Source of the DNA: Methanosalsum zhilinae DSM 4017 | Lineage (GTDB): Archaea > Halobacteriota > Methanosarcinia > Methanosarcinales > Methanosarcinaceae | Direction of reading: 5' to 3' | Length of the DNA stretch: 64,000 nt | NCBI RefSeq assembly: GCF_000217995.1 | Contig: NC_015676.1 | Location: 2,029,708-2,093,707, forward strand | Shown here: positions 24,890 through 39,610 of the stretch, in pieces | Position numbering within the stretch: the stretch's first letter is position 1 | Layout: every line of letters starts with the position of its first letter | Translations under genes and position numbers: made by a program | Notes under the pieces: model-generated | The model's input: only the letters and a program-made list of their open reading frames with translations | What the model was told of the DNA's origin: nothing | Databases searched by the model: none

Positions 24890-26827
24890 TTACTTTTTTC
24901 CAATATCAGGAATTCCAACACCTACCACCACAACATGAGTCTCCATTGGAGGATGGGGCCAGCCTTCAGGTGACAGTCTTTTCTCTCTTGTTTTAATTTC
25001 AATCTGATCATCGTTGAATCCACATTCTGACATGTATCTGGATATAATATCCCTCCCATGGCTTCTTGCAAAATCAAGTGCCTGAATATACTCATCAAAT
25101 TTGTACCTTCCAGCACTTGAAAAAACCAGGAAATTTTCATCCGGATGAGTCATGGATTCAGGTTTGATCATTATCTCGACTCTCTTGATACCTTTTCCAA
25201 AAAGTGCACCTGCAGCATTACCAACATGAGCAAACTCAGGGACAGTGATATCAGCATCAATTATATTCTTCAGGTCCTGATCATATGCTTTCACAGGTCC
25301 TCCAAGAAGCACTACAGGTAAATCCAGTTTGAACCGTACATGTTCACTTTCAGCAAGCATTTCCTCAATTCCCTCACAAGGAATCATTGGCAGCATAAAG
25401 GTCAACAGATGGTATGCCATGTTTTGGGTGAATCTCTTCTTCACATAGGTACAGAATTCATATTTCTGCATGTGGGCCAGTTTGGATATTCTGTCAGCTC
25501 CAGCAAGTGAAGCATCCCTGCTCCATTGTGTATATTCTCCGAGAACATGGAGAACATCTGTTGGGGTAAAACCAATTGCCTGGACCAGTCTTTTTCTGAT
25601 CAGTGCATCCATCACCTGTGAGGCAGGAGGTTTTGAGGTCAGATTTGCAATATCTCCAAAGGAGAGAGGGTCATCACCTATAACCCTTAAAAGGTTCTTT
25701 TCTGAAGTTGTCAACTCCCCTGCTTTCCTTCCAGTTCTTACAAAAAATTTCGTTGGCTGGATATTCTCATCAAGTGTACTTCTTGGGGTGGGTTGATCAC
25801 GTTTGAGTTTTTCCAGAAAGCCCTGATATTTAACAGCAGCATAGCATAGAGGGATAACCCTTTTTGGGCCTATAAAAGCCTTCCTGTCCTTGACCCAGAT
25901 ATGACTGTCTCCTCCCATGGCCGAAGTTTCCATTCTTGTGGCCCGGACTCGGGTCTTCCAGCCTCCAACAACAGCACCAGTTTCGCTCAGTTCAGGTACG
26001 CCCTTTGACAGAATGGATACATCTGTACTGGTACCCCCCACATCAATAACAGCACATGTGTCCATTCCGGTAAGAAAAGATGCCCCTACCAGGCTTGCAG
26101 CAGGACCTGAAAAAATGGTTTCTATAGGTTTTTCAAGTGCATCTTTGATCCCTATCACCGACCCATCACATTTGAGCATCAACATCCTGGCATCGATTCC
26201 GCGATTTTTTACTGCTGAGATGGTGGCCTGTATGAATTTCTGGGTTATGGGAATGAGACGGGCATTGAGGGTGGCGGTTACTGCCCTTTCATATACTCCA
26301 ATATCCTGGGATAGTTCATGACCGCATACCACCGGCATATCCGTCATTTCCTGAACTATTTTTTTAGCTTCCAGTTCATGTTCAGGGTTTCGTATACTGA
26401 AATAGGATGATACTGCAAAGGCAGAAACCTTGCTCTTTGTTTTTTTGACAAATGATCTTATATTGCCTGGGTCAAGGGATTCGAGTTCTTCACCATTACT
26501 ATCATGTCCTCCACTGGAATGCAGAATATCTGCTGCAGGGTACTGCCTGTGAGGGTGATCTCCCAGCAGAATCAGTGCCACAGGATCTCCTGTCCCCTCA
26601 AGCACAGTATTTGTTGCCAGAGTAGTGGATACAGAAACAAGATGCACATCTGAAAGCATTGAGGGATCAAGCCCATCGATTGCATTCTCTATACCTTCAA
26701 GCATATCAGGGTAGGTTGTCATTGATTTGTTATATTCGACTATCGACCCATCAGAATCTCTTACTATAATAGCATCAGTATACGTGCCTCCTGCATCTAT
26801 ACCCAGACTGTATTGCATAAATTTCAC
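24890..26827 (-). CDS. Hydantoinase/oxoprolinase family protein
   Basis: The 645-residue protein is of the HyuA/oxoprolinase-A group: LGIDAGGTYTDAI at the N-terminus (phosphate-1 loop of the ASKHA fold), STTLATNTVLEG, SGPAASLVGASF and CAVIDVGGTSTDVSI. Family members hydrolyse hydantoins or 5-oxoproline with ATP, often with a HyuB partner, which is not here. Similar stand-alone genes occur in methanogens and their substrate is not established. It has no obvious operon partner; wrbA follows 52 bases downstream on the same strand. Confidence 0.8.
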   Translation of the reverse strand: MKFMQYSLGIDAGGTYTDAIIVRDSDGSIVEYNKSMTTYPDMLEGIENAIDGLDPSMLSDVHLVSVSTTLATNTVLEGTGDPVALILLGDHPHRQYPAADILHSSGGHDSNGEELESLDPGNIRSFVKKTKSKVSAFAVSSYFSIRNPEHELEAKKIVQEMTDMPVVCGHELSQDIGVYERAVTATLNARLIPITQKFIQATISAVKNRGIDARMLMLKCDGSVIGIKDALEKPIETIFSGPAASLVGASFLTGMDTCAVIDVGGTSTDVSILSKGVPELSETGAVVGGWKTRVRATRMETSAMGGDSHIWVKDRKAFIGPKRVIPLCYAAVKYQGFLEKLKRDQPTPRSTLDENIQPTKFFVRTGRKAGELTTSEKNLLRVIGDDPLSFGDIANLTSKPPASQVMDALIRKRLVQAIGFTPTDVLHVLGEYTQWSRDASLAGADRISKLAHMQKYEFCTYVKKRFTQNMAYHLLTFMLPMIPCEGIEEMLAESEHVRFKLDLPVVLLGGPVKAYDQDLKNIIDADITVPEFAHVGNAAGALFGKGIKRVEIMIKPESMTHPDENFLVFSSAGRYKFDEYIQALDFARSHGRDIISRYMSECGFNDDQIEIKTREKRLSPEGWPHPPMETHVVVVGVGIPDIGKK

Positions 26828-27171: not shown

Positions 27172-28560
27172 TCAGAGTCCGTAGTTCTTCTCAGGACGGA
27201 AGACCTTGACCTCTGATTTATATTTCTCCATGGAGTCGCTCATGAACTGATCCTTGTCATCTGTAAGAGCCTCCAGGTCTGCCTTGGCTTTTGCAAGTGC
27301 ATTGTCCTCGAATCTGGTCAGTTCAAGGTTGCCTTTCTTACCCTGATCCAGAAGCTTGCAGCATTCCAGAGCTGCATTCTTTGCACGCAGGTACAGGTCA
27401 TCCCCGTTCTTTGCAATTGCCTGACCAATCTTGAAAGCATTGTCGTAAGCAAGGATATAGCCCTGTGGATCTCTGTATCTGTCAGAAGCAACAAACATGT
27501 CCCTCAGGATTTTTTCATTGCCTGATTTGAGTGCAACATTCATCAGTGTACAGTCATAGCCAAGGGTTTCTGCCCAGCACTGTACTGATGTACCACCAAA
27601 TTCTCCGTGATATTCAACGGATTCATTGGACCACAGGTCACAGCACTGCATGATCAGGTTACCGACCACATCTGAGTGTGCATCTGTTGAGGTCTTACCT
27701 TCCTGAGATATTGGAACACCTGCTATTGATTTGACAATTGTGTTCTCATAACCACAGTCCTTTCCTGGGCCTGTTGCACCTGCTTCATATGCCACAAGTG
27801 ACCTTGAGGCAGCAACTGAACGGGCAATGATTGCCAGAGTGTGGGCAAGGTTCTTGTCAAGCAGACCACCTGCTATAAACATAGCAGTATTTGCCTGGGC
27901 ACAGTCTGTATCACCGGCTGGAACAACATTGTTTTTCTTTGCGACTTTTGCAATGTCCTGCCAGATATATTCCATATCCATTGCACCCAGACATCCAATA
28001 CCATACAGTACACCCTGCATGTCGTTTCTCAGGATTGCGTGGTCAAATACCTCTTTACCTCCCATTGTTTCAATGGACAGTAGGTCGGCTCCCTTTGAAG
28101 CAACCTCATCAAATGCCTCCATGAGTACTGAGTATTTGTCACCCCTTAATTCAAGGTAGTCACGGTCCTCACGAATGTCACCTGGTGTGTGTCTTAGTGC
28201 ACATTTGATACCATACTCTTCATGGAACTCTTCCATGATGGTTTTCTGGGCATGTGCAACTTCTCCACCCCACTTGGGGTTGTTGGTCATCTGCTGGACA
28301 TGTTCGGTTTCCAGAACAACTCCCGGGAATCCTACCTGAACCATTCTGGACATAATGTCTGTGGTGATTTTTTCATATTCCCTTACAAGCTTTTCCTTGG
28401 ATTCACCTGCAGCAGGTCTTGGGGCATAGTTCACCTCGGGTGTGGTATATCCTGCTCCGATCTCAAGACCAAGTCCGGCTTTAACAGGTTTTGGAGATTT
28501 TCCAAAGATCATTTCGTCGGCACTGCCATAGGCCATCTTAGTAAATCTTTTAACTGCCAT
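27172..28560 (-). CDS. mtaB: Methanol:corrinoid methyltransferase MtaB, copy 1
   Basis: The protein of 462 residues is a full-length MtaB, a TIM-barrel zinc enzyme that moves the methyl group of methanol to the corrinoid on MtaC. Zinc ligands known from the Methanosarcina barkeri enzyme can be placed as Glu in LLSIETMGGKE, Cys in DTDCAQAN and Cys in GKDCGYEN. The start is the ATG encoding MAVKRFTKMAY, with GAGGTGA five bases before it; the GTG three codons earlier is part of that site. It follows mtaC1 by 12 bases. It is closely related to mtaB2 (29844-31229). Confidence 0.97.
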   Translation of the reverse strand: MAVKRFTKMAYGSADEMIFGKSPKPVKAGLGLEIGAGYTTPEVNYAPRPAAGESKEKLVREYEKITTDIMSRMVQVGFPGVVLETEHVQQMTNNPKWGGEVAHAQKTIMEEFHEEYGIKCALRHTPGDIREDRDYLELRGDKYSVLMEAFDEVASKGADLLSIETMGGKEVFDHAILRNDMQGVLYGIGCLGAMDMEYIWQDIAKVAKKNNVVPAGDTDCAQANTAMFIAGGLLDKNLAHTLAIIARSVAASRSLVAYEAGATGPGKDCGYENTIVKSIAGVPISQEGKTSTDAHSDVVGNLIMQCCDLWSNESVEYHGEFGGTSVQCWAETLGYDCTLMNVALKSGNEKILRDMFVASDRYRDPQGYILAYDNAFKIGQAIAKNGDDLYLRAKNAALECCKLLDQGKKGNLELTRFEDNALAKAKADLEALTDDKDQFMSDSMEKYKSEVKVFRPEKNYGL

Positions 28561-28572
28561 TTTGATCACCTC

Positions 28573-29337
28573 TTAATGTTGATGGAACTGCTCCCTCAGC
28601 TTACCAATATCTCCACCACTCTTGAGTATAGCATTGGCCATCTTTACAGCATCATTTGCTTCCTCGCCATATACTCCGAGTTCGTACTGTTCCACAAAGT
28701 CCTGGTTGACTGCTCCGCCACCACACTGGAATGGAACCTTCACACCACTCTCAACCAGTCTGTCATTGATCTGTTTGAAAGCGAACATGGTGGTTGTCAT
28801 CAGGGCTGTGCCAGTCAGCATCAGAGGTTTCTCTTTCTTGACAGCAGAGATGACTTCCTCTACAGGAACATCTCTTCCAAGGTCCACAACATCATATCCT
28901 GCTGCTCTTAACAGTGCAGCAACGATGTTTTTACCGATGTCGTGTACGTCACCCTCTGCCACATGGCAGACGACTTTACCTTTTGCCTCATGTGTTTTGC
29001 TTGATTTGGATTTACAGTAGTCAATACCTTCAAGCATTGCATCTGCAGACATCATCACGTTTGGCAGGAATATTACACCGTCATCATATAGCTTGCTGAC
29101 AACGTTCATTCCTGTCATCAGATCCTTTATAAGATCAATCGGATCCTTCCCGCCACTTATAGCCTTATCAAGACCTGCAATTACTTCATCTTCATCGCCC
29201 TCAAAGATTGCCTGTGCAATCGAGCGAACTGGCTCTTCTTTTGGATAAAGTTCTGCAGCAGCCTCTTCGGGTGCCATTTCCTTTTCCAATTTTACATTGT
29301 ATCGTACCAGAATATCACTGGGTTTTACTTCTATCAT
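28573..29337 (-). CDS. mtaC: Methanol corrinoid protein MtaC, copy 1
   Basis: The 254-residue protein has a helical cap (about 1-115) and a B12-binding Rossmann domain. EGDVHDIGK places the cobalt-ligating histidine at residue 132, and SGTALMTTTM-like LTGTALMTTTM and CGGGAV line the nucleotide tail. It carries the methyl group between MtaB and MtaA. The ATG has GGGAG before it, and the long leader upstream carries the hairpin and two sequence blocks described separately. Confidence 0.97.
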   Translation of the reverse strand: MIEVKPSDILVRYNVKLEKEMAPEEAAAELYPKEEPVRSIAQAIFEGDEDEVIAGLDKAISGGKDPIDLIKDLMTGMNVVSKLYDDGVIFLPNVMMSADAMLEGIDYCKSKSSKTHEAKGKVVCHVAEGDVHDIGKNIVAALLRAAGYDVVDLGRDVPVEEVISAVKKEKPLMLTGTALMTTTMFAFKQINDRLVESGVKVPFQCGGGAVNQDFVEQYELGVYGEEANDAVKMANAILKSGGDIGKLREQFHQH

Positions 29338-29341
29338 GCCA

Positions 29342-29444
29342 ATACTCCCTTTCGTTTATTTATATAGTCTGAGGTCCATGTGGGTTCACGGCCTCTTTTT
29401 AAAGTTTTCCAATCTACTCGTTGAGATTCCTGACTAGGAATCTC
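29342..29444 (-). promoter_or_regulatory. mtaC1 5' leader with end hairpin and two conserved blocks
   Basis: On the minus strand the leader of about 107 bases starts with a perfect hairpin: arms GAGATTCCT and AGGAATCTC around a four-base loop (29423-29444). Three bases later comes GAGTAGATTGGA (29408-29419), and just before the start codon GAAAGGGAGTAT (29342-29353), which includes the ribosome site. The TATA box at 29468-29475 puts the transcription start at the first base of the hairpin. The same layout is found before mtaA. Confidence 0.65.
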
Positions 29445-29467
29445 TGATAATAGATTAGAATTCATAG

Positions 29468-29475
29468 TATATAAA
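29468..29475 (-). promoter_or_regulatory. TATA box of mtaC1-mtaB1
   Basis: TTTATATA on the minus strand lies 23 bases before the leader hairpin, which is the standard archaeal TATA-to-start distance. Upstream, 29476-29843 is very AT-rich and non-coding; it contains the 3' end region of mtaB2 and probably the binding sites for the regulators of this operon, but I see no clear repeat in it. Confidence 0.6.
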
Positions 29476-29843
29476 TATCACTGCCATACATTTCTGCTAT
29501 ATATAGTTATTTTAACATAATAAAATAATTTTTATTTATGTCTTCAACCAAATAACGTCTTTTGATACGTATTATTGAACAAATATAAAAAAAATTATAT
29601 TAAGTATGTATAATTAGTTCGATATCTTTATATATAATTAATTGATGGAGGCTTTTTAAATCTAATATATATACATTATCCAGAAATGATGAGCAAATAT
29701 CTGAATGCAGAAAAAGATATTAGTTAATTTCCGGAGGTTGTGATCGTTTTAGGGTTTGAGTTGATTCAATATATGGAAAAAATCTGTAAAAATCTATAAA
29801 TAGCAGTCTAGAAAAGCAATATCAAGAGACTTATTTTGATAGA

Positions 29844-31229
29844 TCAGAGTTGATAATTAGCCGGAATGAAGCTCTTTACCTCTGCCACATATTTATCCAG
29901 ACACTCCAGCATGAACTGATCACCATCATCTGTAAAGGACTCAAGTTCCATGCGTGCCTTATGAAGTGCACTACACTCAAAACGTGACATTTTGAGTTTA
30001 TTCTCAGGAGCCTGTGTAAGCAATCTGCAACATTTGAGAGCTGCATTCTTTGCACGCAGATAAAGGTCATCCCCATCCTTTACAATTGCCTGGCCTATCC
30101 TGTATGCATTGTCATATGCAAGGACATATCCCTGGGGATCCCTGTATCGATCTGAAAGCATCAGGATATCTCGCAATATTTTAGCGTATCCGGTCTCTAT
30201 TGCCACATTAAGCATACTGCAGTCATAGGAGAGTGTTTCTGCCCAGCACTGTACAGACATTCCACCAAATTCACCATGATACTCTACCGATTCATTGGAC
30301 CACAGATCACAGCACTGCATCATCAGGTTGCCCATTATGTCAGAATGTGCACAGCTTGAGCTTTTGCCTTCCTGGGATATGGGTACACCTGCTATGGACT
30401 TGAGAATTGTGTTCTCATAGCCACAATCCTTTGCAGGACCTGTTGCACCAGCCTCATGTGCCACAAGTGATCTCGAAGCTGCAATAGAGCGGGCAATAGT
30501 TGCCTGGGTATGGGCAAGGTTCTTGTCAAGCAGACCACCTGCTATAAACATGGCAGTATTTGCCTGGGCACATCCGGGATCTCCTGAGGCAACAGCCCTG
30601 TTCTTCTCTGCGATCTTTACAATATCGGTCCACAGATACTCCATATCAATCGCCCCAAGACATCCGATTGAGTACAGTACGCCTTTCATATCGTTTTTGA
30701 GAATTGCATGGTCAAATATTTCTTTACCACCCATAGATTCTATAGACAGCATGTCTGCACCACTTGATGCTATCTCTTCAAAGGACTCCATGAGAAGGGA
30801 ATACCTGTCACCCCGTAGACGCAGTTGATTGTGTTCTTCACGTATATCCGCTGCAGTATGCCTCAGTGCACATTTAATTCCATATTCCTCATGGAACTCT
30901 TCCATTATGGTTTTCTGTACATGTGCCACCTCTGCACCCCAGCCGGGATTGCGGGTCATCTGCTGGACATGTTCGGTTTCCAGAACAACTGCCGGAAAAC
31001 CCAGCTGGATCATTCTCTGCATTATGTCTGTTGTGATCTTCTCATATTCCCTAACAATCTTTTCCCGGGTTTCTGCTGCAGCAGGTCTTGGAGCATAATT
31101 TATTTCAGGGATGGTGGATCCTGCCCCAATCTCAATACCAAATCCGGCCTTTACAGGCCTTATGGCACTTCCAAAGACCATTTCATCTGCGTTTTCATAG
31201 GCCATTTCAGTAAATCTTTTAAGAGTCAT
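29844..31229 (-). CDS. mtaB: Methanol:corrinoid methyltransferase MtaB, copy 2
   Basis: The 461-residue MtaB keeps the zinc ligands: Glu in LLSIESMGGKE-like MLSIESMGGKE, Cys in DPGCAQAN and Cys in AKDCGYEN. It differs from copy 1 throughout, so it is an isozyme and not a recent duplicate. It starts MTLKRFTEMAY with GAGG upstream and follows mtaC2 by 10 bases. Multiple mtaCB isozymes with different regulation are usual in Methanosarcinaceae. Confidence 0.96.
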   Translation of the reverse strand: MTLKRFTEMAYENADEMVFGSAIRPVKAGFGIEIGAGSTIPEINYAPRPAAAETREKIVREYEKITTDIMQRMIQLGFPAVVLETEHVQQMTRNPGWGAEVAHVQKTIMEEFHEEYGIKCALRHTAADIREEHNQLRLRGDRYSLLMESFEEIASSGADMLSIESMGGKEIFDHAILKNDMKGVLYSIGCLGAIDMEYLWTDIVKIAEKNRAVASGDPGCAQANTAMFIAGGLLDKNLAHTQATIARSIAASRSLVAHEAGATGPAKDCGYENTILKSIAGVPISQEGKSSSCAHSDIMGNLMMQCCDLWSNESVEYHGEFGGMSVQCWAETLSYDCSMLNVAIETGYAKILRDILMLSDRYRDPQGYVLAYDNAYRIGQAIVKDGDDLYLRAKNAALKCCRLLTQAPENKLKMSRFECSALHKARMELESFTDDGDQFMLECLDKYVAEVKSFIPANYQL

Positions 31230-31239
31230 ATTTTAAGCC

Positions 31240-32007
31240 TCAGTGCCTGTGGAATTTGTTTCTGAGCTGTTCTATACTCAGACCTTTAAGTATGGCATCT
31301 GCAATTTTTGGTACATCTGCAGCTTCCTCACCATAAATTCCAAGGTCATAATGGGATACAAAATCCTGTGTAACCGCCCCCCCGCCGCATACGAAAGGAA
31401 CGTTGACCCCATCTTGTTCAAGTTTTTCCTTAATCTGCTTGAAAGAGTGCATTGTCGTGGTCATCAGAGCTGTTCCACTCAGAAACAGGGGTTTTTCTCG
31501 TTTAACAGTATCCACAACTTCCTCGACCGGTACATCCCTGCCAAGATCGATCACATCATAACCATTCGCACGAAGAAGTATTGTCACAATCGTCTTTCCA
31601 ATATCATGAATATCTCCCTCCACCACAAAGGATACCACCTTGCCTTTATTGAACTCCAGAGGTATATGCGACATCTCCTTACAGAACTCAATACCATCGA
31701 TCATTGCGTGTGCTGAAATGATCACATCCGGAAGATAGATAACACCTTCATCATAAAGCCTGGATACGATCTCCATACCTACCATCAGAGCTTCGTTTAT
31801 AAGATAAAGCGGATCCATTCCTGAATCCATTGCCCTTTGCAGGCCCTCTATGACTTCATCCTCATCACCTTCAAAGATAGCCCTGGTGATCGGGCGGATC
31901 ATTTCATCTGCTGGATAGAGTTCTTCAGCGGCTTCCTCAGGAGTCATGCACTCTTCCAGTTTGACATTGTATCTTACAAGAATTCGGTCAGGATTTATAT
32001 CAAGCAT
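31240..32007 (-). CDS. mtaC: Methanol corrinoid protein MtaC, copy 2
   Basis: The 255-residue corrinoid protein has the cobalt-ligating histidine in EGDIHDIGK, followed by SGTALMTTTM and CGGGAVTQDF. I start at the ATG encoding MLDINPDR; the codon before it is TTG. GGGA lies nine bases upstream. The TATA box TTTATATA is at 32115-32122, giving a leader of roughly 80 bases that lacks the hairpin and the GAGTAGATTGGA block seen at mtaC1 and mtaA. Confidence 0.96.
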   Translation of the reverse strand: MLDINPDRILVRYNVKLEECMTPEEAAEELYPADEMIRPITRAIFEGDEDEVIEGLQRAMDSGMDPLYLINEALMVGMEIVSRLYDEGVIYLPDVIISAHAMIDGIEFCKEMSHIPLEFNKGKVVSFVVEGDIHDIGKTIVTILLRANGYDVIDLGRDVPVEEVVDTVKREKPLFLSGTALMTTTMHSFKQIKEKLEQDGVNVPFVCGGGAVTQDFVSHYDLGIYGEEAADVPKIADAILKGLSIEQLRNKFHRH

Positions 32008-32114
32008 CAAAATACGTCCCTATGATTAATCCATGCCAACAGGCTCTTAGTATCATTGACCCCGCTGTTAGTATTATTTTTGATGATCGTTTCCAATATA
32101 GTCTTACTGAAAAC

Positions 32115-32122
32115 TATATAAA
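32115..32122 (-). promoter_or_regulatory. TATA box of mtaC2-mtaB2
   Basis: TTTATATA on the minus strand in the 148-base gap after the PAS sensor gene. The expected start is near 32090. A weak look-alike of the mta leader block (ACTATATTGGA) falls across the start site, so it is not in the same position as at mtaC1 and mtaA. Confidence 0.5.
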
Positions 32123-32155
32123 ATCTGTGCATCAGCATGGAAAAAAGATAAGAAC

Positions 32156-35100
32156 TTATAATGACCTTTCTCTACAGACAGCAACAATGACATCCTGAGC
32201 ATTCCAGTTCCCACGACTGAACTTTGTTTCCTTGTAAACAAGTGTCCCATCCCTGCTCATGAGAGGACAGGTGCATATTGAAGATTTGCCTTTAATGACA
32301 TCAGAAAGCATTGTAGCAACTTCAAGCTGGTGGTTATGCGAATGCAGGGATACCAGATTCATGCCTGTCAACTCATCAGAACGATACCCTAATCTTCTGA
32401 GCGCTGAAGCGTTTGTATAAAGGATCCTGCCACTGTAATCCATTATAAAAAGAAAATCCTCAATGGATTCAAGAATATTCTGTATCTCTTTCTGACTCCT
32501 TCTTGTATCGGATTCATCCTTGATCTTTCCTATAAGTGTTCCTATTCGAACAGCCACGGCTTCTATGGAATTGCGGGTTCTGGAAGGGATCTCATATTCA
32601 CTGTATGACGCAAGAAACATAACTGCAACAAGTTTTGCATCTGATAGAATGGGGATAATAGCAGTGGATGCCAGTCCTTCATCTTTCAAGTGGTTTTCCC
32701 TTGTAATAGATATTACCTCTGAGTGCAATTTGTATATGGGATATCCGGTCTTGAAAAGTCTTGCAGGCATTGAATTTGCATCATAATGGGATGTATGTTC
32801 AATAAAATTGGGAGATAGTCCACTATGAACAACTATATTCAGGTCACCTGTAATCTCATCTACAATGTAAAGGGCGCCACAATCAATCTCATTCATCTGC
32901 AGGGTAAATTCCAGAAACTGTTCAAATGTTTCCTGAAGGTTTCCAGTTGGACTGAACAGACACCCTACATCAGATTCAATATTCATAAAGCTGTTTGTCC
33001 GCTTGCGGTCAGTTATATCAACAATTATACCCTGATAGTGATCTAAATTTCCTTCTTCATCTGCCTGCATGAAGGTCCTCTCATCAACCCATCTGACCTC
33101 TCCTGAACGGGTGATTATTCTATACTCCTGTGAAAAATCAGTATATCCTTTCTCAAAACGTTTTGCTATTTCGGTCTGGACATTCTCAAGATCGTCAGGA
33201 TGGATTATATCTCCATACAGGAGCTTTCCTGATGTGAAGTCTTCAGCAATGTATCCAAATTTTTCAATATTTTCAGATACAAACACCACAGGCCAGTTTT
33301 TTTCAGCCTTCCACATAAAAACAATTGCAGGGCTTGTTTTGATCACATTCTGGAGCATTTTCTGGACTTCGAGGGAATCAATCAGTTCATCTTCCTTTTC
33401 TTTCTGTTCTGTCACATCCCTTATTGTAATCATTACAGCAGGTTTTCCCTCATGGTGTATCGAAGAAAAATTGATCTCAGCTGGAATCCTTGTACCGTCG
33501 GTGGATAACAGTTCTACCTCATAATGGCGTACCGGGTCATTATCGCTTTTCAGGCACTTGTTGTATCTTTTAAGGATCATCCTTCCATATTCAACAGGAA
33601 AGAAGTCAAGAAAGGGCCTGCCAATCAATTCCTCTTTTGTACTTCCAGTGATTTCACAGAACTTGGAATTCACAAAATTCAGCTTATCTTCCTGTACGAT
33701 TACAATCCCATCATTACCTTTTTCCACAAGTGTGGAGTACTTTTTCTCAGAAGCCCTGAGTGCCTCCTCCGCCAATTTATTATTAATTATTCTCCACATA
33801 TCCTGCACAATCAGGGTCACATTCTTTGTATCTGACTGTAAATACTGATTCTCCCGGTCCCATACGCAAGCAACCACTGTCAGGTCCCCCTCATCAAAAA
33901 CCGGGACACTCAGTGTCCTGTTAACAGGGAGATGACCGGGAGAAAACATTTTCTCAATTACAGGGGACAATTTACATTTTTCTGAACAGCCATACGGTTC
34001 TTGTATGACATCTTTTAGAAAATCAGAAACCTGAGATTTATCAGATACACGTTCCTGATAGAAAATATTCTTCCCATGATTTTCATAGAAAATGTATATA
34101 TTTATTTTTTCATTGTTGTTATCAATCAGTGCCATATATCCTGCCCGACTGCGGGTAAGATATACAGATTTTCTAAGGGCAAAGCCAGCAATGTCATCAA
34201 CTGACGAATCTGTCATCTGATTGAGTTCAAGTAGTGCTTCAGTTCTGGATTCATCAAGAAGAAGAGCGTCCTCAGTGTTTTTTTTCTCGCTAATATCACG
34301 TATCGTGACCATCACAGCAGAACGGGCCTCGTGGTCAATGGATGAAAAGGTAACTTCAGCAGGTATCAACCTGTTATCTTTGGAAATTATCTCTATTTCA
34401 TATACCCGTGAAGGGGTGCTCTCCTTATTCAGCCTTTTTTGATACCTTTTTGTTACCATTCTAAAATAGTCAACAGGAACAAAATATAGTAATTGTTTGC
34501 CGAGAGTTTCTTCTTTACCATAACCTGTAATCTCACAGAATTTCGAATTTACAAATTTGAGTACATCATCCTGAACAATAATTATCCCATCATTGGCACT
34601 TTCAACCAGTGTGGAATATTTCTTCTCAGAAGACTTTAGTGCTGCTTCAGTTTCTTTCCACTCAGTAACATCCTCAAGCGCCAGTAGTATTGATTCCGGT
34701 TCGCCTGTAACCGGAGTGACTTTTCTGGCATTGATGAGCATTATTCTTTTACCGATATTCTCAAATTCAAATTCTATCTCAAAATTATCAAAACTTTTAT
34801 CCTGGGGTAGTATTTCATCAAGAAGCTGTCTAAGCTTTGGGATGTTCCATTCACCATTGCCAAGATCATATAATAATCTGCCCTCAGTTTCCTGTAGAGT
34901 TGTCCCAAATAACCGGTAGAATGACCTGCTTGCAAAAACAATACGCAGGTCCCTATCAAGGATCAGTATCGGTTCTCTGATGGTATTGACAATACTCTGG
35001 AAATACTCATTACTTTCCTTTTGACACATTTCCATATGTTTTTTTCCTGTAATATCAATCAGTATACTCTCATAGTGTGTTATCTTACCTTCGCTGTTTC

Positions 35101-35398
35101 TGCATGGAAAAGTCCTGATACTGGCCCAGCGGATACTTCCATTGTTGGTCAGGATCCTGCATTCAAAGGAAAGTTCAGGTATTTCACCAAACCTGAGTCT
35201 CATCATTTCATCTGCAAGAAGGTCAAGATCATAAAATATATCGGCATAGGACATTCCTGAAGTTACAAAATCATCAGGCGAATAGCCCAGGTGACATATA
35301 TTTTCTGACACGGATTCAACAGATAAGTCCGGATCTGCCTTAAGGACAAAAATAATCATAGGGCTGTTTTCGATTATTTTCATCAGTTCTTCCTGCAT
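32156..35398 (-). CDS. Multi-PAS/GAF sensor protein without an output domain
   Basis: The 1080-residue cytoplasmic protein has no signal peptide or membrane helix. I read six PAS/PAC modules (about 1-110, 125-245, 255-370, 550-670, 680-795 and 965-1080) and two GAF-like regions (about 375-540 and 800-960). PAS 3 and PAS 4 are near copies of each other (EKKYSTLVE, NDGI, KFCEITG). The first GAF-like region has CSEKCKL, whose cysteines could bind a cofactor. No histidine kinase, ATPase, HTH or cyclase domain follows the last PAS, so signals must pass through a partner. It lies between the COG0523 gene and mtaC2 on the same strand, with its own TATA-like box near 35555. A methanol or redox sensing role is inferred from context. 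Confidence 0.85.
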   Translation of the reverse strand: MQEELMKIIENSPMIIFVLKADPDLSVESVSENICHLGYSPDDFVTSGMSYADIFYDLDLLADEMMRLRFGEIPELSFECRILTNNGSIRWASIRTFPCRNSEGKITHYESILIDITGKKHMEMCQKESNEYFQSIVNTIREPILILDRDLRIVFASRSFYRLFGTTLQETEGRLLYDLGNGEWNIPKLRQLLDEILPQDKSFDNFEIEFEFENIGKRIMLINARKVTPVTGEPESILLALEDVTEWKETEAALKSSEKKYSTLVESANDGIIIVQDDVLKFVNSKFCEITGYGKEETLGKQLLYFVPVDYFRMVTKRYQKRLNKESTPSRVYEIEIISKDNRLIPAEVTFSSIDHEARSAVMVTIRDISEKKNTEDALLLDESRTEALLELNQMTDSSVDDIAGFALRKSVYLTRSRAGYMALIDNNNEKINIYIFYENHGKNIFYQERVSDKSQVSDFLKDVIQEPYGCSEKCKLSPVIEKMFSPGHLPVNRTLSVPVFDEGDLTVVACVWDRENQYLQSDTKNVTLIVQDMWRIINNKLAEEALRASEKKYSTLVEKGNDGIVIVQEDKLNFVNSKFCEITGSTKEELIGRPFLDFFPVEYGRMILKRYNKCLKSDNDPVRHYEVELLSTDGTRIPAEINFSSIHHEGKPAVMITIRDVTEQKEKEDELIDSLEVQKMLQNVIKTSPAIVFMWKAEKNWPVVFVSENIEKFGYIAEDFTSGKLLYGDIIHPDDLENVQTEIAKRFEKGYTDFSQEYRIITRSGEVRWVDERTFMQADEEGNLDHYQGIIVDITDRKRTNSFMNIESDVGCLFSPTGNLQETFEQFLEFTLQMNEIDCGALYIVDEITGDLNIVVHSGLSPNFIEHTSHYDANSMPARLFKTGYPIYKLHSEVISITRENHLKDEGLASTAIIPILSDAKLVAVMFLASYSEYEIPSRTRNSIEAVAVRIGTLIGKIKDESDTRRSQKEIQNILESIEDFLFIMDYSGRILYTNASALRRLGYRSDELTGMNLVSLHSHNHQLEVATMLSDVIKGKSSICTCPLMSRDGTLVYKETKFSRGNWNAQDVIVAVCRERSL

Positions 35399-35551
35399 AT
35401 TGAAAGAAATGATCCGGATCCTATTTTCAGCTTGCCCCTGATCAAATACATTATTAGCGGAAATACTAGCACCCCTTTTGAACCATTATATTAAACCGGA
35501 CAGTTCGTAGCTTTAATATAAGGAAATACATAAAACTATGTTTGCACAAAC

Positions 35552-35559
35552 TATATATA
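35552..35559 (-). promoter_or_regulatory. TATA-like box of the PAS sensor gene
   Basis: TATATATA, downstream of the structured element and about 155 bases before the PAS gene start. If used, the structured element is not part of the PAS transcript. Confidence 0.4.
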
Positions 35560-35583
35560 TTATTATGATTTTCAGATATTAAG

Positions 35584-35652
35584 GTTCACACCTGAGGCGA
35601 TACTTCCTTTCAATCCAATCTACTCAGAATATCGTTTTTATTAGGTGTGAAC
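35584..35652 (-). ncRNA. Structured element with nested stems and mta leader blocks
   Basis: On the minus strand, an outer perfect 10-bp stem (GTTCACACCT at 35643-35652 with AGGTGTGAAC at 35584-35593) encloses an inner stem CGATA/TATCG (35630-35634 with 35598-35602). The inner loop displays GAGTAGATTGGA (35614-35625) and then GAAAGGAAGTAT (35600-35611), the same two blocks as in the mtaC1 and mtaA leaders. It begins 24 bases after the COG0523 stop codon. It may be a 3' structured RNA of the mtaA operon, a terminator or a leader remnant; typing it as ncRNA is tentative. Confidence 0.45.
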
Positions 35653-35676
35653 ATTATCCTTTAGAGAACATAAATT

Positions 35677-36723
35677 CTAATGATCGTGATCATGTGTATG
35701 TAGCTGTTTAATATGTATTCCCTTTTCTTCAAATATTTCTTTTATTGATGATTCAACGATTTCTATAAGTTTCTCAGAAGAGATATTCGAAATTGCAGAC
35801 AGGATGTTAAGTTTTGAAGAAGAAGGCCCGTCTTGGGGTTCTATCACCTCTATCTGGGGAGATTCATAATAAGCGGTAACACTTGCCTTTATTACCTCAT
35901 TACCGGTATTTAGATAGATTTTTATGTGGCCCACAAATTCAGGATTCAGAGCCTCTACCCTGGCCTTGATTGTCATTATAATGCTCTCAGCCATTTCATC
36001 TGCTCTCAGGTCATCAATTCCTTCATCTATCACAAATTCACGGGCATAGGTAGCAATACCAGAACATGCAATTGAATCCAGCTCTTCACTGGACAGCTCA
36101 CTTATAGCCTCAAGCTGCATTTTCTGGTCTTCAAACAGCATTTCTATAAATTCTCTGAAATCCTCATCTTCCTCTTTTGCAGAAAGTGCCATTACTCTTG
36201 CATCTGGATTGAGCTGATGAACCGATTCTTTGATTATTGGTAGTTCTATTGGATCTATCAGGTCCCTCTTATTGATCACCAGTATTTCGGCATCGATGAT
36301 CTGGCGCTGGGAAAAGTGTTTTACTTCTTTTAGAAGATGTTTGAACCTGCTGCCATCTATCAGTGTTACAAGGGGAGCAAATTTTACATCAGGTATATCC
36401 ATTAGCATGATCTCATTTCTGATAACATGAGGAAATGCAATACCTGTTGGCTCGATCAAAAGAAAATCAGGATTATAGGTATTTCGAAGCTTTGATACCG
36501 TGAATTTCATATCTCTTTTCAGACTGCAGCATATACAGCCACTGGTCAGTTCAGTAGTATCAAAGCCATACTTTGAAATCACCTCGCCATCTACACCAAC
36601 CTCTCCGATCTCATTTACGATGATAGCCACACGATGTCCCAGCTTGTTGAGATACTTTCCAAGCTTGAGTACTGTCGTTGTTTTACCGCTTCCCAGAAAT
36701 CCACCAATTATCAGAACTCTCAT
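35677..36723 (-). CDS. COG0523 (CobW-like) GTPase, probable metal chaperone
   Basis: The 348-residue GTPase has Walker A GGFLGSGKTT, the CXCC metal motif in SGCICCSL, a Glu-rich switch, and NKRD for guanine. The protein ends with a histidine tail, HTHDHDH. COG0523 proteins deliver metals (zinc, cobalt, others) to target enzymes. It is the third gene of an mtaA-activase operon, with a 39-base gap from the activase. Both MtaA and MtaB are zinc enzymes and MtaC needs cobalt, so zinc or corrinoid delivery is the likely job; this is inference. Confidence 0.88.
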   Translation of the reverse strand: MRVLIIGGFLGSGKTTTVLKLGKYLNKLGHRVAIIVNEIGEVGVDGEVISKYGFDTTELTSGCICCSLKRDMKFTVSKLRNTYNPDFLLIEPTGIAFPHVIRNEIMLMDIPDVKFAPLVTLIDGSRFKHLLKEVKHFSQRQIIDAEILVINKRDLIDPIELPIIKESVHQLNPDARVMALSAKEEDEDFREFIEMLFEDQKMQLEAISELSSEELDSIACSGIATYAREFVIDEGIDDLRADEMAESIIMTIKARVEALNPEFVGHIKIYLNTGNEVIKASVTAYYESPQIEVIEPQDGPSSSKLNILSAISNISSEKLIEIVESSIKEIFEEKGIHIKQLHTHDHDH

Positions 36724-36762
36724 GATCTATTAATTCTCCGGATAAACTATTAATTATTTAAA

Positions 36763-38382
36763 TTAAACTTTTGCAACCACCAGATTCTCCCACCTAAACT
36801 TCTCAGGAGGACAGGCACGTATACATTTCTGACAGTTTGAACCATCACACAAGTCTGTTCTTATAAGTACAACTCCCTCCTCATCCATCTCAATGGCATC
36901 GTTTGGACAGACCAGGATACATTTACGACATTCCTCGCAATCTTCGATCTTCATGGTAAGATAGGTACCAACCCTTTCGATAACTGAAAGGCCTTCATCT
37001 CCAAGATCTGCAATGTCCCTCTCAACAAGTTTTGAAACCTGAGGAGCTTTTGCAGGTTCATCCAGATTTGAAAGGTTCTTCTTTTTCAGATATTTCTTGA
37101 ACATCTTAAAGGGCATACCTTCACCCCAGTATGCAAGCTCAAGGACATAGGTATCCTGGAATGCCTTATCCATTGCAAACATCACATGATTTCCGACTAT
37201 CTTTTGAGATATATCCTGCAGTTCCCACAGTCGGTCCTCTGATAGAAGTATTTCCCGTGCAAGGGTCAGGGACGTATTTCCTATCTGATATACATCATTC
37301 ACTCCAAAGGGGATCATTCCTATCCTGTGAGCCTTTACTGCATCCATATAAGTACCCGCTGCCCCGGACATATATGCAGTTTTGATATCCTGCATTTCGA
37401 TACCTGCAACATTGCATAGGGTGATGTGACCTGCCCTTATGGCTCCTATGGCCCTTCCGGCTTCTATAAGGTCTTTTTCTGAAAAGCGGATATTGTCCTG
37501 CAAATGTAGGATCTTATCAGTGGTGTTGATCCTTGGCAGCTGTATCAACCCTTTCCCCATGGATTGTTCAATCAGGGCAATAACACCTGTTCCGGTGATC
37601 CCCTTTGCCCTTATATCCCCTTTCTGGACAACCTCACCGCTTTTTGGATCAACAAGGTCCCCTTCTACAGCAGTCAGTTCATCGTCCAGAACGTAGTTGC
37701 GAAGAGAATCATTTTCGAATTTCACATCAGATATTGCATTTGGTGATGCCAGTATACCATCCCGTATCTGCTGGCCCTCAAGTGCAGGGCCTGCAGCAGC
37801 TGAGCCAGTATAGATTACATTGTCCACCTTCAGGGCCATTTCTGCATTTGTACCATAATCCGTGGCTATTGATATATCATCACTGTCAAGCATTCCGGAT
37901 TTTACAATCAGGGCCAGGGCATCGGCTCCGACCTCATGCTTTATTGCAGGAGGAATCATAACCTGACAATCCCCGAAATCTTCAAGACCCGGTATATCAC
38001 TGGAACTTATAATAGCAGCTTTTCTCTCCTGCTCCTTTATATTGAGTTTTTTCTTCTTTCTCTCACCTGCATATGCAAGGTCTTCAACAGGAATTCCCTG
38101 GAATAATGATAACTGGATAGGGTTACCACATACTGCAATACGATCAATTGAACTCTGGTCTGTCCTGAGCATATCAGATATGTTTTTAAAGGCGTTTATA
38201 ACCAGCTCATGAGCTATGTCCTGTCCGTAGTTTACCGCAAAATCAAGGTGATCCATCACATTTGCACCCGGAAGAGGGTTTCTTAGAGAAATTACAGTCT
38301 TTCCAATATTCCCACTCTCCAGATCAATTCTCTGTGCCCTGAACCCGCTGGTTCCAAGATCAATTGCAATTCCCTGTTTCAT
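36763..38382 (-). CDS. Corrinoid protein reductive activase, RamA family (methanol type)
   Basis: The protein of about 539 residues joins an ASKHA-type ATPase domain (GIAIDLGTSGFRAQ at the N-terminus, ISIATDYGTNAEMAL, GTGVIAL) to a C-terminal pair of [4Fe-4S] clusters: CEECRKCILVCP and CDGSNCQKCIRACP. RamA uses ATP and these clusters to reduce inactive Co(II) corrinoid to Co(I). Between mtaA and the COG0523 gene, it is most likely the methyltransferase activation protein for MtaC. The start is the ATG with AGAGGGA six bases before it, not the ATG six codons upstream. Confidence 0.9.
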   Translation of the reverse strand: MKQGIAIDLGTSGFRAQRIDLESGNIGKTVISLRNPLPGANVMDHLDFAVNYGQDIAHELVINAFKNISDMLRTDQSSIDRIAVCGNPIQLSLFQGIPVEDLAYAGERKKKKLNIKEQERKAAIISSSDIPGLEDFGDCQVMIPPAIKHEVGADALALIVKSGMLDSDDISIATDYGTNAEMALKVDNVIYTGSAAAGPALEGQQIRDGILASPNAISDVKFENDSLRNYVLDDELTAVEGDLVDPKSGEVVQKGDIRAKGITGTGVIALIEQSMGKGLIQLPRINTTDKILHLQDNIRFSEKDLIEAGRAIGAIRAGHITLCNVAGIEMQDIKTAYMSGAAGTYMDAVKAHRIGMIPFGVNDVYQIGNTSLTLAREILLSEDRLWELQDISQKIVGNHVMFAMDKAFQDTYVLELAYWGEGMPFKMFKKYLKKKNLSNLDEPAKAPQVSKLVERDIADLGDEGLSVIERVGTYLTMKIEDCEECRKCILVCPNDAIEMDEEGVVLIRTDLCDGSNCQKCIRACPPEKFRWENLVVAKV

Positions 38383-38477
38383 ATTAGTTCCCTCTGCCAT
38401 TTGTTATCTATGATCATTAAAAAAGGAGAGGAATATTGATTATATCCCCCTCTTAAAAAAAGGTGACAAAATAGCCA

Positions 38478-39497
38478 TTATTTATAGTACTCATCCCTCC
38501 CCTCAACAAGTGCCTTTACATTATCAAGCGGAGTATTTGGAGCGATACCACATCCTGGAGCGACTACATCTATTCCACCATCCAGGGCCTTTCTGACATC
38601 CTCCCGCACTTTCTCGGGGGTACCGCTAAGCAGTGAGAACGGACTTGATACATTACCCACCAGTGTCACCCGATCACCAACGGTGTCCTTTGCAGCCTTT
38701 ACATCAGCAACCTTCTCCTCAATACTTAGAGCCTCAAATTTACAGTCTGCCATCATATCCAGTATAGGGGTCACATTACCACAGACATGCAGAACAGTGG
38801 CAGAATTTACACTCTCTGCGAATTTTTCAAGTCTTGGTTTGAGTCTGGTCTTGAAATCATTGGGGTTCATAAGGTCAGGTGAAGCTACCGGATCTGCAAC
38901 ACATATAACATCTGCTCCGTTTTTGACAAGACCATTTGCATATTCAATGCATGCATCTGTAGCAAAATCAAGTATAGCTTCAAAATCATCAGGTTTTTTT
39001 ATTGACCATTTCATGAACTTGCTCACACTGCAAAGATCAGAAGCAAGAGTCACTGGTCCTTCCATACCGGCAATCAGTGGTACATTTTCACCTACCCTGT
39101 CTCTGGCTATCTTTGCAGCCTCAAAAACTGCAGGTATCCTGCCAGTTTCCAGGAGATTGTCAGGCATTTTCAGATCATCTGTCCCGCGTGTATATGGATG
39201 ATCTGTAATCGATGGCTGTCTGTTCTTTGTGCCCATGTTCACCCCGCACCCCATAGCTTCAGCAAGTACTGTAAGACAGTAGGGATAACGCACTGCCTCA
39301 AGTCCTGCAATCTCATGAGAGGCAAGTGCAAGCTTTGCCATTTTTTCAGGGTCACTGTGTGCCTCAGGCCATGCAGCATCTGTTGCATCCATCAATTCTA
39401 CTATAGCGGTCTGTGTAACTGAAACCGCAGGTGCTTTATCTACAGGTTTTGCCTGTAATGCATTCAACAGTCTTTCTTTAAGATTTAAATCAGTCAT
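38478..39497 (-). CDS. mtaA: Methylcobamide:coenzyme M methyltransferase MtaA
   Basis: The 339-residue protein is of the uroporphyrinogen decarboxylase-like fold. The zinc site is His and Cys in TVLHVCGN and Cys in APGCGIAP. It moves the methyl group from MtaC to coenzyme M, making methyl-CoM for methanogenesis. Its position, next to the activase and the mtaCB copies, favours MtaA over the methylamine-specific MtbA. GGAG precedes the ATG. It is the first gene of the mtaA-activase-COG0523 operon. Confidence 0.93.
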   Translation of the reverse strand: MTDLNLKERLLNALQAKPVDKAPAVSVTQTAIVELMDATDAAWPEAHSDPEKMAKLALASHEIAGLEAVRYPYCLTVLAEAMGCGVNMGTKNRQPSITDHPYTRGTDDLKMPDNLLETGRIPAVFEAAKIARDRVGENVPLIAGMEGPVTLASDLCSVSKFMKWSIKKPDDFEAILDFATDACIEYANGLVKNGADVICVADPVASPDLMNPNDFKTRLKPRLEKFAESVNSATVLHVCGNVTPILDMMADCKFEALSIEEKVADVKAAKDTVGDRVTLVGNVSSPFSLLSGTPEKVREDVRKALDGGIDVVAPGCGIAPNTPLDNVKALVEGRDEYYK

Positions 39498-39549
39498 TAT
39501 AACTCCTTCTCCTAGACTATATCCTTGATCTAAAAGAAGTACATATAGT

Positions 39550-39610
39550 ATACTTCCTTTCTTATTAGGTAATATTCAATCCAATCTACTCACAATGAAC
39601 ATATGTTCAT
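39550..39610 (-). promoter_or_regulatory. mtaA 5' leader with end hairpin and two conserved blocks
   Basis: On the minus strand the leader begins with the perfect 16-bp palindrome ATGAACATATGTTCAT (39595-39610). After three bases comes GAGTAGATTGGA (39580-39591, extended by TTGAA), then GAAAGGAAGTAT (39550-39561). The TATA box at 39636-39643 places the start of the message at the palindrome. The spacing of hairpin and first block is the same as at mtaC1. Confidence 0.65.

Follow-up and report, generated by a model that had tools for sequence, protein, structure and literature searches.

The methanol gene cluster and its recurrent motif

The stretch of DNA analysed here (the window) comprises 64,000 nt of Methanosalsum zhilinae DSM 4017 (NC_015676.1, positions 2,029,708-2,093,707, forward strand). 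It contains the following methanol genes and neighbours:

35677-39497, minus strand: mtaA (39497-38478), ramA (38400-36763) and a gene for a COG0523/cobW-like GTPase (36723-35677), from gene calls
32156-35398, minus strand: gene for a multi-PAS/GAF protein of 1080 aa, directly downstream of a hairpin described below; assigned by Pfam, synteny and phylogenetic profile
29844-32010, minus strand: mtaC2 (32010-31240) and mtaB2 (31229-29844), downstream of the PAS gene
27172-29337, minus strand: mtaC1 (29337-28573) and mtaB1 (28569-27172), matching NF040655 and NF040651 above cut-off

An earlier note on this DNA had placed two sequence blocks before mtaC1, before mtaA and at a third site, and on re-checking all six of its coordinates were exact. 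Block 1, GAGTAGATTGGA, has three exact matches in the window, all on the minus strand, where 0.02 are expected from dinucleotide shuffles; a count of three was reached in 0 of 100 shuffles. The block 2 pattern, GAAAGGRAGTAT, likewise has three exact matches against 0.02 expected. In the whole genome (2,138,444 bp) the three copies in the window are the only exact GAGTAGATTGGA sites, and sites with one mismatch are not commoner than those of a reversed control pattern. The three-fold recurrence of both blocks is not due to chance. The 18 bases said to be common to the mtaA copy and the third copy around block 1 were also found, and read TGAGTAGATTGGATTGAA. The third copy does lie after the COG0523 gene; it is better described as lying before the PAS gene (35398-32156), because the latter is the neighbour that is conserved across genera.

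A structured leader precedes mtaC1

Four elements were recognised upstream of mtaC1:

29423-29444, minus strand: hairpin P1, GAGATTCC TAGTCA GGAATCTC; fold z = -4.6; at the same position in five genera, with compensatory changes
29408-29419, minus strand: block 1 (GAGTAGATTGGA), whose GATTGG core is conserved in the leaders of genera g1 (Methanosalsum), g7, g10, g11 and g12
29371-29395, minus strand: hairpin P2; fold z = -4.4; present in all of these genera with differing sequence
29342-29353, minus strand: block 2 (GAAAGGGAGTAT), overlapping the Shine-Dalgarno region of mtaC1 (ATG at 29337)

The order of elements is the same in all five genera: a TATA box, P1, GUAGAUUGGAU, P2 and AAGGARGU at the Shine-Dalgarno site of mtaC. 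In g7, g10, g11 and g12 the leaders read TATA-like box, P1, GUAGAUUGGAU or GAUUGGAU/G, P2, an A-rich stretch, AAGGAAGU or AAGGAGGU, and the start codon. In each of the 28 mtaC1 leaders that were aligned, block 2 occupies the Shine-Dalgarno position. Two further genomes of the same genus as the window, G072 and G073, carry both blocks in their mtaC1 leaders at different spacing.

A covariance model (R1) built from the g11 and g12 leaders only recovered the mtaC1 leaders of g1, g7 and g10. When whole genomes were searched with R1 behind a strict prefilter, at which weak sites are lost, a single strong match per genome was obtained directly before mtaC in 33 genomes (23 of g11, 4 of g12 and 6 of g10). 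Changes on both sides were seen at all 13 base pairs of P1 and P2, with 67 such cells among 38 distinct rows compared to 15 in shuffles, and 93% of cells were paired compared to at most 58% when the arms were slid; no shuffle reached the observed values, in statistics for which the alignment (A5) was fitted to the model and the shuffles ignore shared ancestry. The P1 and P2 segments also fold better than their shuffles in most leaders, the weak cases including P1 of L068, L120 and L121.

As judged by promoter prediction, the TATA-like box lies 53-57 bases upstream of GATTGG in most mtaC1 leaders and about 61 bases upstream of it in Methanosalsum. Block 1 therefore falls inside the predicted transcript, at about +25.

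Two simpler pairings were considered and set aside. In some Methanosalsum leaders block 1 could pair with the 5' end of the transcript (CUAAUCUA), but this is not general. The two blocks are both purine-rich and not complementary, which rules out that they pair with each other.

The mtaA leaders

Upstream of mtaA the corresponding features are:

39595-39610, minus strand: hairpin P1, ATGAAC ATAT GTTCAT, aligned to P1 by model R1 (39610-39544, E = 3.6e-6)
39580-39591, minus strand: block 1, exact match
39550-39561, minus strand: block 2, 53 nt before the mtaA ATG

The full motif, P1 with both blocks, is found before mtaA only in Methanosalsum, and in G072 it is diverged yet recognisable (TGTAGATTGGATTAA ... 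GCAAGGAAGTTT). Leaders of mtaA in g10 carry P1 and block 1, CATAGATTGGAG, at the Shine-Dalgarno position of mtaA itself. The motif is absent from the mtaA leaders of most g7 genomes and from all of those inspected in g11; in a few of the g7 leaders GATTGATTGGATGG occurs at a different position.

Soon after block 2 of the mtaA leader in the window there is a mini-ORF, ATG TAC TTC TTT TAG (39550-39520, minus strand). The g11 mtaA upstream regions L141, L146, L147, L154 and L156-L159 share two other conserved words that resemble the complement of block 1. One, AATCCAATAG, immediately precedes the TATA box, and the other, AATCTACTC, falls within the predicted 5' UTR.

A hairpin with the fused motif lies before the PAS/GAF gene

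The third copy differs in form from the mtaC1 leader, as its two blocks are fused into one motif, GAUUGGAUYGAAGGAAGC, within a single hairpin:

35584-35652, minus strand: stand-alone hairpin with a 10-bp outer stem (GTTCACACCT/AGGTGTGAAC) and an inner CGATA/TATCG stem; conserved in seven genera, with covariation in the outer stem
35600-35625, minus strand: blocks 1 and 2 inside this hairpin, GAGTAGATTGGA TT GAAAGGAAGTAT; identical in three genomes of the genus, including G072 and G073

A single fold for the three copies in the window was rejected; those of mtaC1 and mtaA are of the P1 type, whereas the one before the PAS gene is of the fused type. Across genera the outer stem follows GYTCACAYC/GRTGTGARC, with changes on both sides at six pairs, and the fused motif GATTGGAKYGAAGGAAG (GATTGGATTGAAAGGAAG in Methanosalsum) lies in the apical part.

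Searched with a one-mismatch pattern, the hairpin was found in 11 of 11 g7 genomes, 23 of 27 g11 genomes, six of g10, three of g12 and G030 (g9), mostly once per genome; G038 has a variant hairpin. In the annotated clusters of g1, g7, g9, g10, g11 and g12 it is immediately followed by an orthologous PAS/GAF gene, whichever gene stands on its other side (cobW, ramA, mtaA, mtaC2 or a divergent one). A search in which the C-terminal 540 aa of the PAS protein in the window served as query gave at least 520 bits for orthologues and at most 452 bits for paralogues, the second copies found in G022, G026 and G064 excepted. The genomes with the hairpin have an orthologue, as do two that the pattern had missed, G029 and G003. 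On inspection a diverged hairpin was seen at the corresponding site in both, so that g3 joins the list and brings the number of genera to seven; at a stem position that is mismatched in G030, G029 carries a compensating G. The PAS/GAF protein is orthologous across seven genera and is always encoded beside mtaC genes; no kinase, DNA- or RNA-binding or output domain was recognised in it with Pfam.

The start codon of the PAS gene is about 90-230 nt from the hairpin and both blocks are nevertheless kept, which argues that block 2 is conserved beyond its role at the ribosome site. Only in g12 and G038 is the hairpin immediately preceded by a good TATA box. It may therefore belong to a 3' UTR or form an RNA of its own and not be a PAS leader. 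In g11, T-rich tracts follow the hairpin by about 30-50 nt.

Complementarity of the pyrimidine arm of the hairpin to the mtaC Shine-Dalgarno sequence was noticed in g11 and dropped, as it is not seen in g7 or g10.

In the upstream region of mtaC2, behind a TATA-like box, GACTATATTGGA (32092-32103) has two mismatches from block 1. It is also present in G073 and not in G072, and is possibly a degenerate fourth copy.

Co-occurrence and taxonomic range

By pattern or inspection the hairpin is present in 48 genomes, and leader and hairpin occur together in 47; either is found alone in one genome each. In G070 the mtaC1 leader is present and neither the PAS gene nor the hairpin was detected. Of the 27 g11 genomes, 23 have both leader and hairpin, and the other four have neither. 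The g9 genomes have kept the hairpin and the PAS gene, and no mtaC1 leader was found in them.

In a class-wide search all exact matches to the motif but two were inside this clade. The two exceptions outside the family, G208 and G228, belong to a distant genus, and scattered one-mismatch matches were also seen. In g13, presumed to be Methanosarcina, the mtaC upstream regions that were inspected are without the motif and the pattern search of the family gave no exact site in the genus. The earlier note had made the occurrence of the blocks in leaders of related species the measure of its proposal; they are present across this clade, but the Methanosarcina leaders inspected are without them. Its wider claim, that methanol operons share a leader element, has strong support and can be extended: the element stands before orthologous mtaC1 genes in five genera, before mtaA in two and, as the fused hairpin, before the PAS gene in seven, and its helices covary. 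The note's further suggestion, that the element binds an RNA-binding regulator or belongs to a switch, may hold.

No family in Rfam 15 matched the element in the window or its relatives, the only matches being weak ones elsewhere, far below gathering scores, and no description of it was found in open-licence full texts. Archaea have few known RNA control elements that act in cis, and we know of none of this kind for methylotrophic methanogenesis. Judged by comparison of the genomes, methanol-using methanogens of seven genera carry a previously uncatalogued, conserved element, predicted to be a folded RNA, before methanol genes and the linked PAS genes, a pattern that suggests common control of methanol use at the level of RNA.

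A candidate cis-regulatory RNA of the methanol regulon

The comparative data establish the motif, its two architectures, the base-pair covariation, the linkage to mtaC1, mtaA and the PAS gene, and the taxonomic limits. Compensatory changes in its helices together with a constant gene association place the element among predicted structured cis-regulatory RNAs, of which the two blocks first described are the visible part; the larger RNA includes P1, P2 and the PAS-linked form.

We consider it somewhat probable that a cis-regulatory RNA marks the methanol regulon in this clade of Methanosarcinaceae, that the blocks form its invariant and mostly single-stranded portion, and that a trans-acting factor binds to it near the ribosome-binding site of mtaC. 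P1 would stand at the predicted 5' end of the mtaC1 mRNA, followed by GUAGAUUGGAU, and P2 would bring block 1 near the AAGGARGU that overlaps the Shine-Dalgarno site of mtaC1, whereas the PAS/GAF hairpin would present both halves of the motif together. A factor that needs both halves is suggested because the conserved letters are unpaired or apical, and are either split by the variable P2 or fused. This factor, most likely an RNA-binding protein, would recognise the bipartite motif and thereby adjust both the translation or stability of the methanol mRNAs and the expression of the PAS/GAF sensor; control at this level appears most likely because block 2 overlaps the mtaC1 Shine-Dalgarno site. 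Transcription as drawn, binding of a protein and action at the ribosome-binding site are what we infer from these features.

Another possibility is that the stand-alone hairpin is a small RNA, or an RNA derived from a 3' UTR, which copies the mtaC1 leader motif and titrates the binding factor in trans, much as CsrB titrates CsrA. The motif is indeed in sense and not antisense to mtaC1, and the T-rich tracts beyond the hairpin in g11 and the TATA-like box just upstream of it in g12 and G038 would suit a separate transcript. Moreover, G026 has a second, duplicated hairpin (L281:7760-7856) that lacks a PAS gene and adjoins a decayed fragment of ramA. This hairpin is 99% identical to the PAS-linked copy (90 of 91 positions) while the ramA remnant is 70% identical with gaps; the next 60 nt are 87% identical and homology then ends. 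Its retention suggests selection on the RNA itself, although this is a single duplication that gene conversion could explain. The constant placement before PAS genes suits a role in cis equally well, and the g9 genomes retain hairpin and PAS gene where no mtaC1 leader was found for a decoy to copy. We regard titration by the hairpin as unlikely on present evidence. Slightly more doubtful is its fuller version, in which the hairpin would be a decoy for an archaeal RNA-binding regulator and the PAS/GAF protein the sensor or regulator. If true, this would be a Csr-like circuit for methanol use, built independently in Archaea.

It could also be speculated that P1, block 1, P2 and block 2 form the ligand pocket of a small-molecule riboswitch that gates the ribosome-binding site of mtaC1. 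A structured leader with invariant nucleotides, the Shine-Dalgarno overlap and the linkage to one pathway are all consistent with this. The conserved letters, however, are confined to two short purine-rich stretches, the P2 insertion is free in length and sequence and is absent from the hairpin form, and no Rfam family matches, which makes a riboswitch improbable.

Msr regulators of Methanosarcina are transcription factors with DNA operators, and the blocks might likewise be operators of a transcription factor. The nearly fixed distance from TATA box to GATTGG in most mtaC1 leaders would fit, as would the words in the g11 mtaA promoter regions that resemble the complement of block 1. We find operators quite improbable, as P1 and P2 change in sequence yet keep their pairing, the outer stem of the hairpin shows compensation, the spacing between the blocks ranges from 2 to more than 50 bases, and the orientation relative to the gene is the same in every confirmed copy.

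Long 5' UTRs are reported to help stabilise the mtaA and mtaC transcripts at low temperature (PMC5378194). With P1 at the predicted 5' end, that report would agree with a general stability feature composed of 5' hairpins and an ordinary Shine-Dalgarno site, but such a feature leaves unexplained why GAUUGGA is invariant, why it is fused with AAGGAAG in the hairpin before the PAS gene and why each genome has one specific target set, and is very improbable as the only function. Finally, a search of both strands for a trans-encoded antisense sRNA gave no long complementarity beyond the hairpins, only sporadic one-mismatch sites, and the one such site checked as an antisense locus, G000:790805, lies inside an open reading frame; an antisense RNA with a short pairing may exist.

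The element is well enough delimited, by its bipartite motif and two hairpins, its recurrence in about 50 genomes, its three target genes and the linked sensor gene, to serve as bait for the proposed binding factor and for the design of reporter mutations. It would be a first handle on the coordination of methanol genes in genera without the Methanosarcina arrangement.

Comparison with known systems

In architecture the element resembles the Csr/Rsm system, where target leaders have two GGA-containing sites, one overlapping the Shine-Dalgarno region, and a separate hairpin displays the same motif as the targets. Paired GGA sites were found in the mtaC1 leaders, a likeness of architecture only, and two g1 leaders have UUGAA in block 1. 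On the other hand, the methanol motif is much longer and more specific than the GGA site of CsrA, and the PAS hairpin has one composite site and not many. CsrA (PF02599) was found in none of the 112 genomes of the family, while three bacterial control genomes were positive. Membership in Csr/Rsm is rejected because CsrA is absent; a likeness in the way the two systems work is possible.

The mta leaders and Msr regulators of Methanosarcina share with the element the same target genes and long leaders, and differ in that the inspected g13 regions lack the motif. The sRNA162 of Methanosarcina mazei is likewise archaeal and is linked to the choice of methanol or methylamines, but it base pairs with target mRNAs, has another structure and lies at another genomic place (PMC3510493). 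Its homologues were reported only in M. acetivorans and M. barkeri (PMC3510493).

Downstream of mtaB1 the window encodes a protein (24890-26827) resembling hydantoinase-type ATPases (caprolactamase and acetophenone carboxylase subunits). Relatives of this protein are encoded near mta clusters in g7 and g10 (L167, L168 and L282).
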